Source: a virus
Length of the DNA: 39,343 nt
Direction: 5' to 3' (one strand)
IMG/VR virus record: IMGVR_UViG_3300025138_000106
Span: 1 to 39,343 of that record
The position numbers were made by a program, and so were the translations under genes. The notes below the pieces were generated by a model. That model made no database searches, had not been told where the DNA came from, and saw nothing but the letters and a program-made list of their open reading frames with translations. Positions 4,151 through 28,524 of this stretch are shown piece after piece (within the stretch, counting starts at the first letter, position 1; the number at the start of each line of letters is the position of its first letter).

Positions 4151-5638
4151 TTAATCTAATTCAATTAGTATGGTATCATTTGGGTTAATTAATACGTTAC
4201 CTTTATTTGTTGTGTATATTTTTTTAGAGGATCCTCCTGAGGTTGCAGGTACAGTTAAAGAATCTGAGGTTGAAAAACTTCCAGTAGTTAAATGGTGTCT
4301 ATTTTCTGCTTGCACCCTATATAAATAACTACCATCTGGTACATCTGTATCAATAAAACTAGTTATAACAGGAGTACCCATTGAAGAAGTAAAAGAATTC
4401 TGAATTACGGATCCAGATAAAGTAGATATTGGGGTATAATTAGAACCTCCATCTGAACTTCTTTCTATATTATAAATTAAATCTATTAATCTATTATCTG
4501 AGCCAGAATTTTGAGACCAATTTAAAGCTACATCATTATTAGCAACTACAGTAGTTAATAAAGATGGTGTTGGGGGAGCAGATGCAGATATCATCCCATA
4601 CATCCACCCTGCATATGCTAATAAATTTGAAGTTTCTGTTGATGAACCTTCTCCAAAAAGTCCTATTCTTAAATATTTAGTTTTAATAGGGGTACCTACA
4701 TCTAAAAAATAATATTGAAGAGGAGACATTGGGCCTTGGGTTTCTTCAAGATTTACAGTACTAACTAATTCCCAGCTATCTAATTCACCTGTATCAGATT
4801 TATAAAATTGAACTATACCCGGCATATAGACTATAGATGAATAAGATAAAAAATTTATACCCCTAAATAATTTTTTTTCATCCCCCCAATTGATATTCAT
4901 CGTTCCAATGTCATCAGTATAATAAATACCATAATTATCTCTAGGAAAAGAAGTTAATTTTTCTAAGGAAGATAAAGATGCATTATGTCCTACAAAACTT
5001 GCAGTTACATTTGCTTCATTAGGATTAAGTAAATTTATTTGATCTTTAAACAAACTTGAATCCCATCCTGTTATTCCTGCAAATCCTCCATAAGTACCAT
5101 TTCCATCTAACAGCATTATTTTATAATATCTATACGCAGTATTATTAGTAATAGTCATAGTAGCATCATAACCTGCATTTAATGGAGTTCCACTTGATAT
5201 TGGGTAATATATACTTGAAGTTAAACCTGTCCAAGAAGATCCATTATTTGAAGCACTTATTGCATACCCCCCTACTGAATAAGCTGATTGGTTTGCAGAT
5301 GATATTATAAAACTATCTAAAGCTTCTGTACGTCCTATACCTTGATCTAAATCATATGTTATACTCCCACTTCCATCTGGATCTGTATTTTGATTCCAAT
5401 ACATTAACCATGCGTTTCCAGTATCTACCCTAAATGTAGGATTTGGTAAACCTAAAGCCATACCATATTCATTAGTTTCAGCTGTAGTTGATCCTGTTGT
5501 TAATGCCCATGCATATGCTGCTGCTAAAGGGGGTGCACTTGATGTAATATGACTATCAAAAAAAACATTTACATTTCTTTGAAATGGAGACCATAGTGTA
5601 GATGATCCTGTTGTTAATAAATTTCCAAAATTTGACAT
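4151..5638 (-). CDS. Virion surface or fibre protein with fibronectin type III domain
   Basis: 495 residues, no recognised name. The N-terminal two thirds is rich in Ser, Thr, Gly and aromatic residues and looks like beta-sandwich or discoidin-like modules (for example YRYYKIMLLDGNGTYGG and TKYLRIGLFGEGSS, each resembling the last strand of a discoidin fold). Residues about 355-465 form a fibronectin III-like domain: PPTPSLLTTVVANNDVALNW, IYNIERSSDGGSNY and YLYRVQAENRHHL. The C-terminus (IYTTNKGNVLINPNDTILIE) may be a short attachment strand. It begins one base after the stop of the fibre gene, so the pair is co-expressed. A role in adsorption to the host surface is inferred. It could equally be a baseplate or head decoration; no enzymatic motif is visible. 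Confidence 0.65.
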   Translation of the reverse strand: MSNFGNLLTTGSSTLWSPFQRNVNVFFDSHITSSAPPLAAAYAWALTTGSTTAETNEYGMALGLPNPTFRVDTGNAWLMYWNQNTDPDGSGSITYDLDQGIGRTEALDSFIISSANQSAYSVGGYAISASNNGSSWTGLTSSIYYPISSGTPLNAGYDATMTITNNTAYRYYKIMLLDGNGTYGGFAGITGWDSSLFKDQINLLNPNEANVTASFVGHNASLSSLEKLTSFPRDNYGIYYTDDIGTMNINWGDEKKLFRGINFLSYSSIVYMPGIVQFYKSDTGELDSWELVSTVNLEETQGPMSPLQYYFLDVGTPIKTKYLRIGLFGEGSSTETSNLLAYAGWMYGMISASAPPTPSLLTTVVANNDVALNWSQNSGSDNRLIDLIYNIERSSDGGSNYTPISTLSGSVIQNSFTSSMGTPVITSFIDTDVPDGSYLYRVQAENRHHLTTGSFSTSDSLTVPATSGGSSKKIYTTNKGNVLINPNDTILIELD

Positions 5639-21326: not shown

Positions 21327-21626
21327 TTATTTATTTAATGCTTCATACTTAGAAATAATTTCTGAGTAATTTGGTGGAATCCTAATCTGAGACCCTACTG
21401 GGGGAGTTAATGAATTCTGCATTAATGTACCATTAGATATTGAAATAATCCACCAAAGGGAAGAGTCTCCATAATATTGTTGGGCTAAAGTATCAAATCT
21501 ATCACCTACTGTTGTATAAACATAAGTATCATTAAAAGACCTGGGTATTTCTGGGTAGCGTACAGTTCTATACATAATTTTACCCTCTGGGGATCTTGTT
21601 TCTGGTATAGTGCTGTATCTTTTCAT
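21327..21626 (-). CDS. 53: LysM-like baseplate protein (gp53-like)
   Basis: 99 residues. After a short N-terminal arm (RYPEIPRSFNDTYVYTT), the segment VGDRFDTLAQQYYGDSSLWW, ISISNGTLM and VGSQIRIPPNY forms a LysM-like module, as in T4 baseplate wedge gp53 and phage tail protein X. In contractile tails this kind of small protein links hub or wedge subunits, and the sugar-binding origin of LysM is probably not used. T4 gp53 is longer (196 residues), so this is a minimal form. It lies three bases before the hub gene and 20 bases after the 787-residue baseplate gene, fitting a baseplate operon. The gp53 name is by analogy. Confidence 0.7.
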   Translation of the reverse strand: MKRYSTIPETRSPEGKIMYRTVRYPEIPRSFNDTYVYTTVGDRFDTLAQQYYGDSSLWWIISISNGTLMQNSLTPPVGSQIRIPPNYSEIISKYEALNK

Positions 21627-24030: not shown

Positions 24031-26856
24031 TTATTGAATTTCTCGTTCTGCTTCAGCTATACCAGCTCCTACTTTTTCACCCTCCATTACTATTGTGAGA
24101 TCTTTAGCTAAGATTTGTTGGTTAATTGATATAAGTTTACTTATTCCAGATAATAAAGCTGAATTATCATTTCCACTATTAGAATCATTATTTGTTTTTT
24201 CACCCCTTTTAGCCATAGCATCTGCTGCTCCAGGTGCTGCTATAAAATCATCATTTTTAGAAAGTTCAAATATTCCTCCTTCTTTAGGTGATACCTGTGT
24301 TCTACCGTCAGCAGTGCCCATCATATCCCCTGCTGGTTTTTTAAATTTTGAATATAAAGCCATACCTCCAGCTACGGCGGCAGCAGCTGCAGCAACTGCT
24401 AATACCGGACCTATAATAGGTATCTTAGCAATAGATATAGCAGCATTAATAGCAAGTTTACCTACACTTAATAAGAAATTAGCAGCAGCTTTAGCAAAGT
24501 TTTTCATTTCTATTAACCCTTCTTGAATTTTTTTCTTATTAAATAAATTTTGGAGTATGTTTTTAGCTCCTAATAACCCATTATATACTAATGTTGCCGC
24601 ATTTATTGCTTGATCTTTTATGAATATTAAACCTTTTAAAACAAGGTTTTCTTTATTAAATCCTAAACCAATAGCTGTAAGATTATTATTAACAAGTTCA
24701 GCTGCTTGTATTGCTAAAGTTTTTGCTAGTACTGCACCTTTTGCTATAATTCCTTCTCGGGTAAATTGAAGATAAATAAGCTCATAAGCATTTTTAAGTT
24801 TTGCTTGAACATTTTCTTTAAAATATTCTAGTACTAATGCTTTTCTATAGCCTAATTCGTATTTAATATTTGCAAGATTAAGTTTACCAAATTTATCCAT
24901 TACACCTTGAGTAATACTAATACTTTTAAATAATAAATAAATACTACCTAAAACTTTAAAAAGACCACTATATTGTTTTACAAGTTTAGCTGTACCTGAT
25001 ACAGCATCTGCAATAAAGCTTACAATAGGCATAATAGCTGTTCCTATATCAACAAATATTGTTTTTAATTGTTCTACCGATGCTGCAAACCTTTCTTGGA
25101 CTGATTCTGATTCATATTGGGCTCCTAACCTTTCATCTCCTAATGCTTTAGCTGCTTCTTCAGCAGACATAGTTTGTCTTAATGTAGCATATTTTTTCTT
25201 GGCTGCATCATTATCAGCCATTCCTATTTTTTGTAAAGCTTCTCTTTCTATTAAACTTTTAGATAATTGTTCTCGTGTTAATCCTGCTGCCTTAGCAAGG
25301 GCTTCTTGCTGGATAACATTCATTTTTTCAAAATCAGCTGCTGATCCTACTTCTTTAGCTACTTCAGCTGCCGCACCTGCAATATCTCCCTTTAAAGCTA
25401 ATTGTCTTGCAGATTCTAAATTCAATTGTTTACCTGTAAGTAACTCTGCTTCTAATTCTGATTGGATTGAACCCTCAAAGTCTAATAAACTACTAGATAT
25501 ACTTTCCATTTCAGCAAAAGATAAAGCTAATTTTTTAGATGTCATTAAAGTTCTAGTTAAAGCTAGAGGTTGGTTTCTTAATGTTATTAATGTTGCTTTA
25601 CTTACTTTACTAATGTCTTCTAACATTTGTTTTTCACTAAATGTAGTGCCATTTAATGCATTCATAGCAACAAGTTCACCTTGCATAAGAGCTACATTGT
25701 TTTCTAACTCTGTACCTTGAGAACCTGTCAGTTTAGATATTTCAGCTATAGTTCCAGATGTAAATCCTGCTTGTTTAGTTAAAGCTGTAAAAGACTCTAA
25801 CATTTGGTTACTAAAATTAGTAGCCCCTCCAAATTCTTGATTTAATGAATTAAAAGATTCATTTAAGTTTTTAGAATTAACTTGTAAATGATCTGAATCT
25901 ATTGCTACTTGATTAAATTGTTCTTGAAATTTTAGTGATTCTTTATAACTTACACCTATATTTTTTGCTAATTGTCCAGTTAATCTATCTACTGACATCA
26001 TAGCTGATACAAGAAAGGTAAAGGCTCCTTGTATAAGATTAGCTGATGATAAAACCCCTTTTAAATTACCTGCTACACCCTTTAATGTATCTTTTAAAAC
26101 ACTAGATTCACCCTTTGTTTTTATGAAATTTTTTCTAGCTCCATCAATAGCATCAGCTATTCCTAGTGCAGGGATTCCTACTTTTTGTAAAGCTTTATCT
26201 AACCCTTTAGCTAATTGACCCCCAAAACCTATTTTTTTATTAAATTCATCTTCTAAATCAATTCTATCTTCAATTTTATCTAGTACATCTTTTTGAATAT
26301 TATTTTCGTCTCTTAAAATACCAAGGGCAGATCTAGCTTTTGCTCTATCCTCTGCCTTCATTCGGCCTATCTTTAAACCATCCTTTTGTTGTACTTTTCC
26401 ATCTTGGGTTCTAATACCCATTTGCTGCAATAAAGCAGCAGCACTATCTTTAGCTAATCTTGAAGAAGCTCTAGCTCTTTCTTGGATTGCTTTTAATTGT
26501 TTTTTAGATAAATTACCTATATCTTCTTCTTCATTTGCTAGTTTTTGGGCTTCTTTAATAAGGCCCTTCATCCCTTTTTCTAAATCTTTTGTAGCATTTA
26601 TTCCTTTAGGATTAATTTCACTAACTACAGCTTTTAAGGTTTTTTCTAAATCATCAAAAGAAGAGTTTACTCTTCTAACCTGGGATTCAACTCCGTCTAA
26701 ACCTACTTCTAATTGTTGGATTGTATCATTAACATCCTTTATTTTATTAGGATCTATCCCCCTAAAAGGATTTTTCTTTCCTAATTGGTTGTAATTTTTT
26801 TGGATTTGATCCAAAAGATCTTTTATTTCCTGTAGTTTTTTAGGATCTGCGGCCAT
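24031..26856 (-). CDS. Tail tape measure protein (gp29-like role)
   Basis: Sets tail length and is ejected ahead of the DNA. 941 residues; T4 gp29 is about 590, so the tail may be longer than that of T4. The N-terminal 260 residues are charged and coiled-coil-like (LQEIKDLLDQIQKNYNQLGK, VESQVRRVNSSFDDLEKTL). The middle has Ala-rich helices with hydrophobic stretches. Near residues 825-855 lies a very hydrophobic segment (IAKIPIIGPVLAVAAAAAAV) fit to cross a membrane. It is followed by a Gly/Asp-rich segment (GGIFELSKNDDFIAAPGAAD) common in tape measure C-termini. Its position directly after the tail chaperone gene pair is the standard order in tailed phages. Confidence 0.88.
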   Translation of the reverse strand: MAADPKKLQEIKDLLDQIQKNYNQLGKKNPFRGIDPNKIKDVNDTIQQLEVGLDGVESQVRRVNSSFDDLEKTLKAVVSEINPKGINATKDLEKGMKGLIKEAQKLANEEEDIGNLSKKQLKAIQERARASSRLAKDSAAALLQQMGIRTQDGKVQQKDGLKIGRMKAEDRAKARSALGILRDENNIQKDVLDKIEDRIDLEDEFNKKIGFGGQLAKGLDKALQKVGIPALGIADAIDGARKNFIKTKGESSVLKDTLKGVAGNLKGVLSSANLIQGAFTFLVSAMMSVDRLTGQLAKNIGVSYKESLKFQEQFNQVAIDSDHLQVNSKNLNESFNSLNQEFGGATNFSNQMLESFTALTKQAGFTSGTIAEISKLTGSQGTELENNVALMQGELVAMNALNGTTFSEKQMLEDISKVSKATLITLRNQPLALTRTLMTSKKLALSFAEMESISSSLLDFEGSIQSELEAELLTGKQLNLESARQLALKGDIAGAAAEVAKEVGSAADFEKMNVIQQEALAKAAGLTREQLSKSLIEREALQKIGMADNDAAKKKYATLRQTMSAEEAAKALGDERLGAQYESESVQERFAASVEQLKTIFVDIGTAIMPIVSFIADAVSGTAKLVKQYSGLFKVLGSIYLLFKSISITQGVMDKFGKLNLANIKYELGYRKALVLEYFKENVQAKLKNAYELIYLQFTREGIIAKGAVLAKTLAIQAAELVNNNLTAIGLGFNKENLVLKGLIFIKDQAINAATLVYNGLLGAKNILQNLFNKKKIQEGLIEMKNFAKAAANFLLSVGKLAINAAISIAKIPIIGPVLAVAAAAAAVAGGMALYSKFKKPAGDMMGTADGRTQVSPKEGGIFELSKNDDFIAAPGAADAMAKRGEKTNNDSNSGNDNSALLSGISKLISINQQILAKDLTIVMEGEKVGAGIAEAEREIQ

Positions 26857-26891: not shown

Positions 26892-27236
26892 CTATTTATA
26901 ACTACTTTTACCCTTAAAGGGGTTTGATGTTGGTGATGTTTTATTTTGGGTTGATTTTGAAGCTTGAGCAAATGCTGGGGTGTTGACAGTACCATCAGAA
27001 TTTATAAGATTAGTTTCACCTTGGCCTTTATTTGCTTTATCATATTCTTTCTTTTCATCATCATAGTGTTTTTTAATTTCTGAAAAAGTATATTTTCTTA
27101 ACCATAAAGGCATGTTGTAGATAGTATGAAAATCATATCCACCTTTTCCATGAAATACTATTTGGTGTATTTGGTTAAATACAGAAAGTCTAACTTGTGA
27201 GGCTATCTGAGTAGTCAGGCCAAAAAAAGTTAAGTC
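26892..27236 (-). CDS. Frameshift extension of the tail assembly chaperone
   Basis: The open frame runs without a stop from 27236 to the TAG at 26892-26894 and overlaps the 3' end of the 27190-27933 gene by 47 bases. The only ATG is at 27111-27113 (73 residues: MPLWLRKYTFSEIKKHYDDE...). No ATG, GTG or TTG occurs in frame before it. Yet the 36 residues upstream, including VFNQIHQIVFHGKGGYDFHT then IYN, look coding and run smoothly into MPLWLRKYTF. This fits a product made only by frameshifting from the upstream gene at the T7 run, giving a protein of about 346 residues. The C-terminal part is charged, then Ser/Thr/Asn-rich. Analogous G/GT-type chaperones load the tape measure protein, which is the very next gene. 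A separately started 73-residue protein is the alternative. Confidence 0.65.
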   Translation of the reverse strand, partial: DLTFFGLTTQIASQVRLSVFNQIHQIVFHGKGGYDFHTIYNMPLWLRKYTFSEIKKHYDDEKKEYDKANKGQGETNLINSDGTVNTPAFAQASKSTQNKTSPTSNPFKGKSSYK

Positions 27237-27933
27237 CTATAGGGACTCTCACCTCCTCTCCATCATCCATCATATAGTTTAAATCTACATCTGGTTGGTT
27301 TTGATTTATATATTCTCTTAGGGCTCTAGAATCTCTTGCTAATAAGTAATTATCGACAAATTCTCTTATTGTTTTTGAATCAGTTTCTCCTTCAACTGAT
27401 GTTATTAAATGTTTTAATCTAGTAGTAAGATCAGGAGAAGCATTTTTATTCATTTTTTTAAGACCTGCTAATTCTTTTTCTATTTTAGTATCATCATGGC
27501 CTGTTAAAATCTTAAATGTAATGTTAGTTCCACTATGAGGTAACTTAAAACTAAATTCATTTTTACTTTCTGTTATTAAAGAAGTATCAAATTCTTTATT
27601 ATCTAATTCAGATAAATCAATAGTTTCTTCTTCTCCATTATATTCAAATTTGTAATCTTTACCATACCCCAAAATACGAGTTGCTATTAAAACAGCATTT
27701 TTATCTCCTATTATTAAATCTTTTGGGTTTATCTTTGACACTATTACAGATTCTAGTAATTTATCTAGAACTGTTCCTTTTTGAATATATCCTTGGTTTG
27801 TTAGTATATCTTCTTCTTTAGCAGTCATATATTTTATTTCTATTTTACCGCTTGAAAGTGGACTGTCTTTTGGGTATACTAAACCCTTTGATGGTAATTC
27901 TACTTCTTCTGAAGGGAATTTAAATTCTGCCAT
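27190..27933 (-). CDS. Tail assembly chaperone / baseplate gp26-like protein, frame-0 product
   Basis: 247 residues: FKFPSEEVELPSKGLVYPKD, KIEIKYMTAKEEDILTNQGY, LDKLLESVI and NAVLIATRILGYGKDYKFEY at the N-terminus, then a helical region (LTTRLKHLITSVEGE, IREFVDNYLLARDSRALREY). The LPSKGLVYP...MTAKEEDIL pattern is that of T4-like proteins often labelled baseplate hub gp26. Its position between tail tube and tape measure genes is where tailed phages keep the tail chaperone with its frameshifted longer form. The end of the gene holds a run of seven T that could shift ribosomes into the downstream frame. A terminator precedes it and a GTATTTAT element lies 36 bases before its ATG, so it starts a new transcription unit. 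Confidence 0.75.
   Translation of the reverse strand: MAEFKFPSEEVELPSKGLVYPKDSPLSSGKIEIKYMTAKEEDILTNQGYIQKGTVLDKLLESVIVSKINPKDLIIGDKNAVLIATRILGYGKDYKFEYNGEEETIDLSELDNKEFDTSLITESKNEFSFKLPHSGTNITFKILTGHDDTKIEKELAGLKKMNKNASPDLTTRLKHLITSVEGETDSKTIREFVDNYLLARDSRALREYINQNQPDVDLNYMMDDGEEVRVPIGLNFFWPDYSDSLTS
27222..27228 (-). promoter_or_regulatory. Candidate slippery site, seven T, for +1 (or -2) frameshift
   Basis: In the coding strand, AAC TTT TTT TGG CCT is frame 0, reading N-F-F-W-P. Slipping forward one base on the T run gives TTT TTT GGC CTG, reading F-F-G-L and entering the 26892-27236 frame. The run lies inside the window (27193-27236) where both frames are open. Slippage could be ribosomal, or could arise in RNA polymerase on the T tract. 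Confidence 0.6.
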
Positions 27934-28035: not shown

Positions 28036-28524
28036 TTAGAAATTTAATACACAGTAATCTGGTTGTACTGTTAATGAAATTTCTTTTGCTTCATTTTCAG
28101 TATCCCAATTATAATCACCAAATGTTGCTTCTGTAATTAATGCACCTTTGATTACCCATTCTGAAACTATATCTCCTACAGGTCCTAAAATATTTACTGT
28201 AAGATCTTTTTTATAAAAATCAGAATAACCATCTCTACCTGTTACAGATTCGTGATGTAGTCTTACCCACTCCATTACTGCTTGAGCTCCTGATGGTGTA
28301 ATCGGATCAAATAATGTCATTGATATTGGTCCCCAAGTGGTTTTACCTTTAACAAATCTTTGAACATTAATGTGGTTTAAAGCTACTGTACCTTGGGCTA
28401 CATTTACTGCTGCAACTCCTTTAATAATGAAGCTTGGTATACCATCCATATAAAGGATGAATCGGTTCGCTTGTTTGGGTTCAAACGCGGTGAAAAATAT
28501 TTCGTTGGGATCTAATACTGCCAT
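28036..28524 (-). CDS. 19: Tail tube protein (gp19-like)
   Basis: Hexamers stack to form the inner tube through which DNA leaves. 162 residues, nearly the T4 gp19 length of 163. Family-like features are the start (FFTAFEPKQANRFILYMDGI), the beta-rich core (VKGKTTWGPISMTLFDPITP, QAVMEWVRLHHESVTGRDGY) and the end (WVIKGALITEATFGDYNW, EAKEISLTVQPDYCVL). The acidic-aromatic GDYNWDTE before the final strand is typical. It is placed directly after the sheath gene, as in T4 (18-19). It ends in a strong terminator and has its own ATATTTAT element, fitting a protein needed in many copies. Confidence 0.92.
   Translation of the reverse strand: MAVLDPNEIFFTAFEPKQANRFILYMDGIPSFIIKGVAAVNVAQGTVALNHINVQRFVKGKTTWGPISMTLFDPITPSGAQAVMEWVRLHHESVTGRDGYSDFYKKDLTVNILGPVGDIVSEWVIKGALITEATFGDYNWDTENEAKEISLTVQPDYCVLNF

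Follow-up and report, generated by a model that had tools for sequence, protein, structure and literature searches.

A conserved site for probable +1 frameshifting in the tail chaperone gene of a T4-superfamily phage branch

Two overlapping frames between the tail tube and tape measure genes

The window analyzed here, a 39,343-nucleotide stretch of viral DNA (IMG/VR virus record IMGVR_UViG_3300025138_000106, positions 1 to 39,343), carries tail genes in the order tail sheath, tail tube, tail assembly chaperone (TAC) locus and tape measure. The TAC locus lies on the minus strand together with the two genes that border it: a gp19-like tail tube gene immediately upstream (28036..28524; phrog_4542, E 3e-21) and the tape measure gene immediately downstream (24031..26856; phrog_2854, E 6.4e-9). 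These phrog hits match the position that the original prediction had assigned to the locus.

The first gene of the locus, TAC-N (27190..27933, minus strand), encodes a gp26-like protein of 247 aa, which its phrog_150 match and, weakly, its AlphaFold2 model point to as the gpG-like N form of a tail assembly chaperone. A second ORF of 114 codons (26892..27236, minus strand) overlaps its end in the +1 frame and would encode the C-terminal T domain of a long form, TAC-NC (gpGT-like). The overlap (27193-27236) contains the candidate shift site (27220..27228, minus strand), which consists of TTT (27228-27226), TTT (27225-27223) and TGG (27222-27220) followed by a C, and the zero frame across it reads AAC TTT TTT TGG CCT GAC. 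Its run of seven T (T7; 27228-27222) is preceded by a C (27229). A TAG (27237..27239) closes the +1 frame shortly ahead of the first TTT, and the zero-frame stop of TAC-N (27190..27192) follows 36 nt past the start of the site. Skipping one base at the T7 run yields a fusion of 346 residues with its junction at F237-G238, for which the portion 26892-27221 of the +1 ORF would be translated. The sole ATG of the +1 frame (27111..27113) starts a mechanically called ORF of 73 aa, lies within the conserved T domain after its first helix and is preceded by 41 open codons. The overlap, codon counts and fusion originally predicted were thus all correct.

Kinship of the N domain, and probably of the T domain, to T4 gp26 and gp51

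The window N protein matches phrog_150, annotated as 'baseplate hub' (E 1.2e-9), a family that also takes in T4 gp26 (6.7e-71) and gp51 (2.6e-84). Both of these T4 proteins fall in Pfam family PF12322, and blastp aligns one with the other (E 1.7e-6), as expected of paralogs; the shared families and the mutual match argue that gp51 is built from a gp26-like domain followed by a second, C-terminal one. For PF12322 (T4_baseplate), the window N protein gave no hit at E<1, and the corresponding protein of Rhodothermus phage RM378 passes the family cut-off (37.6 vs 24.5 bits), arguing for the window clade as a divergent branch, related to gp26 by kinship rather than by strict Pfam family membership. 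When the N and T domains were folded separately with AlphaFold2, the N-domain model reached a pLDDT of 90, and its best phage match in the PDB—at rank 2, and weak—was the HK97 tail assembly chaperone 2ob9 (prob 0.60, E 0.53, TM (target) 0.47). Sequence searches against solved chaperone structures returned no significant match.

The T-domain model consists of three helices; a fold search of the PDB with it returned nothing, and the window T domain had no significant Pfam match. Profile comparison did connect this domain to others: T domains read in the +1 frame are homologous to those found in a −1 frame behind gp26 in other phages (hhalign E 2.1e-6, score 35.9), a score reached by none of 200 column-shuffled decoys (maximum 18.8). 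The −1 T profile in turn matches the C-terminus of T4 gp51 (26.6 bits). The window T profile had no direct match to T4 gp51, and the link therefore runs through the −1 T domains. Two of 72 T domains also matched phrog_634, which represents the gp51 C-terminus, albeit weakly (best E 0.007), and 15 of 72 frameshift T domains (L005-L255, alignment A5) matched Pfam DUF6760 (PF20546; best E 3.6e-5). DUF6760 is a small family of unknown function, found in contractile injection system clusters beside gp19-type tube genes, and in such settings the T domain may occur as a free-standing protein.

The +1 frame is coding ahead of its ATG

Relatives of the locus were gathered from IMG/VR and phage records. 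The +1 frame is open for at least 35 codons beyond the gp26 stop in all complete cases of the two subclades of the window's branch (93/93 and 63/63), which exceeds chance, as only 22 of 455 other gene ends on the same contigs are open to this extent. From the zero-frame stop to the M position, the rate of nonsynonymous change relative to neutral was 0.063 (620 pairs), and it was 0.168 for the 20 codons after the M position. The best-conserved part of the domain, FFGLT..R..LF.QIHEIVFHGKGGYD..TIYNMPIWLRKF, spans the ATG region and the stretch leading up to it, and the entire first helix of the T-domain model (residues 9-29) precedes M42. The 41 codons ahead of the ATG do encode protein, and purifying selection on them is stronger than on those that follow it. 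This agrees with the initial impression that the stretch reads like real protein, and where stops or a loss of conservation in relatives would have spoken against it, we found the opposite.

A shift site pinned to a pair of Phe codons

The site TTT TTT TGG C is present in 148 of 161 relatives, although these are related to each other and all our site counts ignore kinship, so that figures based on the 161 overstate independence. The remaining sites are TTT CTT TAC (4), CTT TTT TGG (3), TTT TTT TTC (2), TTT TTT TAC (2), TTT CTT TGG (1) and TTT CTA TTC (1; L085). The A-site codon is UGG in 152/161 and UAC or UUC in the remainder. Phe codons at the site are always TTT (313/313), whereas 22% of Phe codons elsewhere in these genes are TTC. 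The T7 run singled out in the original prediction is likewise intact in 152 of the 161. In 30/161 relatives, the +1 frame opens just one codon ahead of the first TTT; the distance from the site start to the zero-frame stop is 15-36 nt. Together, the upstream +1-frame stop in some relatives and the nearby zero-frame stop pin the switch to the site.

The base in front of the site is also constrained. It is a T in merely 2/161 members of the +1 clade, whereas 62% of the codons used elsewhere for the same residues end in T. Asn codons illustrate this, with 470 AAT and 157 AAC elsewhere versus 1 AAT and 45 AAC at the site. The X_XXY_YYZ heptamer of −1 sites, which here would take the form of a T before TTT TTY, is accordingly found in no more than these two members. 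Judging from its codon choice, the +1 branch avoids a preceding T, which would create a −1 heptamer. Among relatives with a −1 T domain, by contrast, this base is a T in 84 of 85.

Probable ribosomal +1 slippage and its alternatives

Comparative evidence supports the notion that the T run is where a frameshift links the two parts of a tail chaperone pair, and we consider it highly probable, on sequence grounds, that the locus encodes the TAC-N/TAC-NC pair of a T4-superfamily myovirus, expressed through a +1 ribosomal shift on a Phe codon. Most ribosomes would then stop at 27190 and release TAC-N (247 aa). In a minority, Phe-tRNA would be paired with the second UUU while UGG waits in the A site (the slip could also come earlier, on the first UUU); moving ahead by one base onto UUU, these ribosomes would read GGC and yield TAC-NC (346 aa). 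By analogy to lambda, TAC-N would coat the tape measure protein, whereas TAC-NC would use its T domain to recruit tail tube subunits.

All site variants are compatible with this scheme: each has a YUU codon in the P site followed by a base permitting one-base-forward re-pairing, such that a Phe or Leu tRNA could re-pair in +1 at every one of them. This includes the distant members Bacillus phage SP-15 (TTT TTT CAC), Listeria phage LIS04, phage GXN1 (TTC TTT CGT) and Streptomyces phage BRock (CTG TTT CGC), where the slip would occur at UUU_C or UUU_U. We found no signal for a stimulatory RNA structure after the site (mean z −0.4 and −1.0, vs −1.7 in a control region), and a Shine-Dalgarno-like element, which not all +1 sites require, was not enriched upstream (14/161 vs 6.7% background). 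Given these two results, the efficiency of the shift could be low.

The original prediction had left open a −2 slip, which would produce the same fusion with one extra Phe if the Phe-tRNA moved from T4-6 to T2-4. Such slippage is known in Mu (PMC5009743), and at TTT TTT TGG and CTT TTT TGG the re-pairing would be perfect, hence as good as +1 at the majority T7 site. However, at TTT CTA TTC and at the GXN1 and BRock sites, all of which allow +1, a −2 slip would either not re-pair or leave a mismatch, and known cases mostly reach the +1 frame by a +1 shift (PMC5009743). Of the two directions, +1 is hence favored and −2 appears unlikely.

Could the T domain instead be a separate gene, translated as a 73-aa protein from the ATG or from a non-ATG start near the junction? 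An in-frame ATG does exist in the window, and annotators have called such small genes in relatives (36 aa in Flavobacterium phage immuto, 58 aa in RM378). Yet the strongest conservation precedes this ATG, initiation there would forfeit the first T-domain helix, and the M is replaced in roughly 30 of 151 relatives (an approximate, regular-expression count)—meaning that its description as the only ATG of the frame is right for the window but does not carry over to these relatives. As for other starts, half of the late-opening frames (15/30) lack ATG, GTG or TTG in their first 20 codons, and the CTG after GGC is CTA, CTT, CTC or CAG in 47/161. Internal initiation thus does not explain the T-domain frame, and we regard two independent genes as very improbable.

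Polymerases, too, can slip on T or A runs, and mRNAs of altered length could place both ORFs in one frame, as the T7 run in 152/161 relatives might suggest. But in nine of 161 relatives, including immuto, the run is broken by a C and the frame is still kept; GXN1 and BRock lack any run; and the T that would extend the run to eight is avoided (2/161). Transcript slippage is hence less probable still, and the broken runs together with the distant UUU_C sites argue against both this explanation and −2 slippage, and in favor of the +1 ribosomal shift. Finally, the window is a metagenomic viral contig, but a sequencing error or decayed gene is already refuted by the relatives, given the same offset in 161 contigs and in the isolates immuto, Mel-JY01, RM378, SP-15 and LIS04, and the purifying selection on the frame.

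A probable change of shift direction within one homologous gene

A T domain in the −1 frame follows gp26 in cyanophages and in rhizobial, Vibrio, Cronobacter, Methylophilales and Desulfovibrio phages, with T TTT TTC or a near variant as the site. The +1 branch comprises the window clade, immuto, Microcystis phage Mel-JY01 and RM378, with SP-15, LIS04, GXN1 and BRock as further +1-type members. RM378 groups with the window clade in the tree (95/90). A single origin of the +1 state received support of 96/89 before SP-15, LIS04, BRock and Atu_ph07 were added; thereafter, it was neither shown nor rejected (p-AU 0.149).

The T4-superfamily phages of the −1 group (loci L090-L175, L260-L263) resemble the window clade in their homologous N and T domains and in having their Phe-Phe pair at the same position near the end of the gene. 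They differ in that they shift by −1 with a T before the site, whereas the window clade would shift by +1 and avoids this T. Probably, one homologous TAC gene has had its shift direction reversed at the same Phe-Phe pair (T_TTT_TTC for −1, [not T]_TTT_TTT_TGG for +1), with the +1 branch under selection against the base that would recreate a −1 site, and with T4 having swapped the shift for a gene duplication.

Two relatives deserve separate mention. GXN1 (L084, PQ819873.1), recorded from Streptococcus agalactiae, has SP-15 and LIS04—both classed as Thornevirus—as the nearest relatives of its TAC gene, and a +1 slip could occur at either of two points in its site, TTC TTT CGT CCC CGA: at UUU_C or at CCC_C. 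A gp26 homologue of a huge phage (L086, LR756511.1) keeps the FFFP motif, its zero frame continues for ~20 codons, and a T-like domain is present in a −1 frame only.

Comparison with known frameshift systems

E. coli prfB has a +1 site, CUU_UGA, with an upstream Shine-Dalgarno-like stimulator. The window site resembles it in the slip from YUU_U onto UUU, with CUU_U in some variants, but has a sense codon (UGG/UAC) in the A site, and the Shine-Dalgarno-like element was not found. Tail chaperone shifts of +1 or −2 are known or proposed in Mu, HSTV-2 and HF1-type haloviruses, and UUU_CGU serves as a +1 site in influenza A. The window clade would share with HSTV-2, the HF1-type haloviruses and influenza A a +1 slip at UUU, and the distant GXN1 and BRock have UUU_CGN itself; unlike these systems, the window clade has UUU_UGG and belongs to bacterial T4-superfamily phages. 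UUU_CGN is a known +1 site, and TTT-CGC has been proposed for the TAC gene of HF1-type haloviruses (PMC7230728).

Frameshifted TAC genes, typified by lambda gpG/gpGT, are present in most long-tailed phages (Xu, Hendrix & Duda 2004, as summarized in PMC5009743), and the shift may be −1, −2 or +1 depending on the phage (PMC5009743). The window pair is similar to lambda gpG/gpGT in having two forms with a common N-terminus, encoded between tail tube and tape measure, and a conserved second ORF that lacks its own start and shares the last part of the first ORF in a different frame, with a conserved slippery site inside the overlap. It differs in that lambda shifts by −1 and the window pair would shift by +1, and in showing only the weak fold match to HK97 2ob9.

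T4 has long been named as the exception to a chaperone frameshift otherwise considered conserved among long-tailed phages (PMC5009743). The T4-type TAC-N/TAC-NC pair has been equated with gp26/gp51 (Vladimirov, Gautam & Davidson 2022, as cited in PMC12846349 and PMC10274946), and a short and a fused long copy in some T4-like phages have been published (Vladimirov 2022, as cited in PMC10274946 and PMC12846349). For phage 0305phi8-36, too, a form with two genes has been put forward (PMC2147016). The window N domain belongs to the same family as gp26/gp51 (phrog_150), and the C-terminal domain of gp51 is related to the −1 T domains; however, T4 uses two separate genes and no frameshift, while the window pair would be joined by +1.

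What looks new is the clade-wide +1 site in about 160 related viruses, a shift direction in a homologous gene that is the reverse of that in the rest of the T4 superfamily, and the finding that the +1 and −1 branches treat the base ahead of the site in opposite ways. A published description of the clade-wide +1 site or the direction change was not found in the literature searched, which covered few subscription papers. The shift appears to be +1 in one large, aquatic branch of T4-superfamily phages and −1 in other branches. Its place in the gene does not change and the bases that decide the direction can be read directly, which amounts to a natural experiment on how the direction of frameshifting at a Phe-Phe pair is determined.

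Annotation of relatives and other window genes

These comparisons also correct the annotation of several sequenced phages, in which the T domain is missing or entered as a separate small gene. Among these phages (L081, L083, L090-L095, L257-L264), it is absent from the annotation of S13, VmeM-32 and LIS04, and it appears as a small hypothetical or 'gp51' gene in immuto, RM378, P-SSM5, Melnitz-3 and phi-Grn1. Elsewhere in the window, a 99-aa protein (21327-21626, minus strand) matches baseplate wedge and baseplate hub families (phrog_7145, E 4.3e-9). A 495-aa protein (4151-5638, minus strand) contains an F5/8 type C (galactose-binding-like) domain (E 1.1e-7) and is perhaps a receptor-binding part of the tail.
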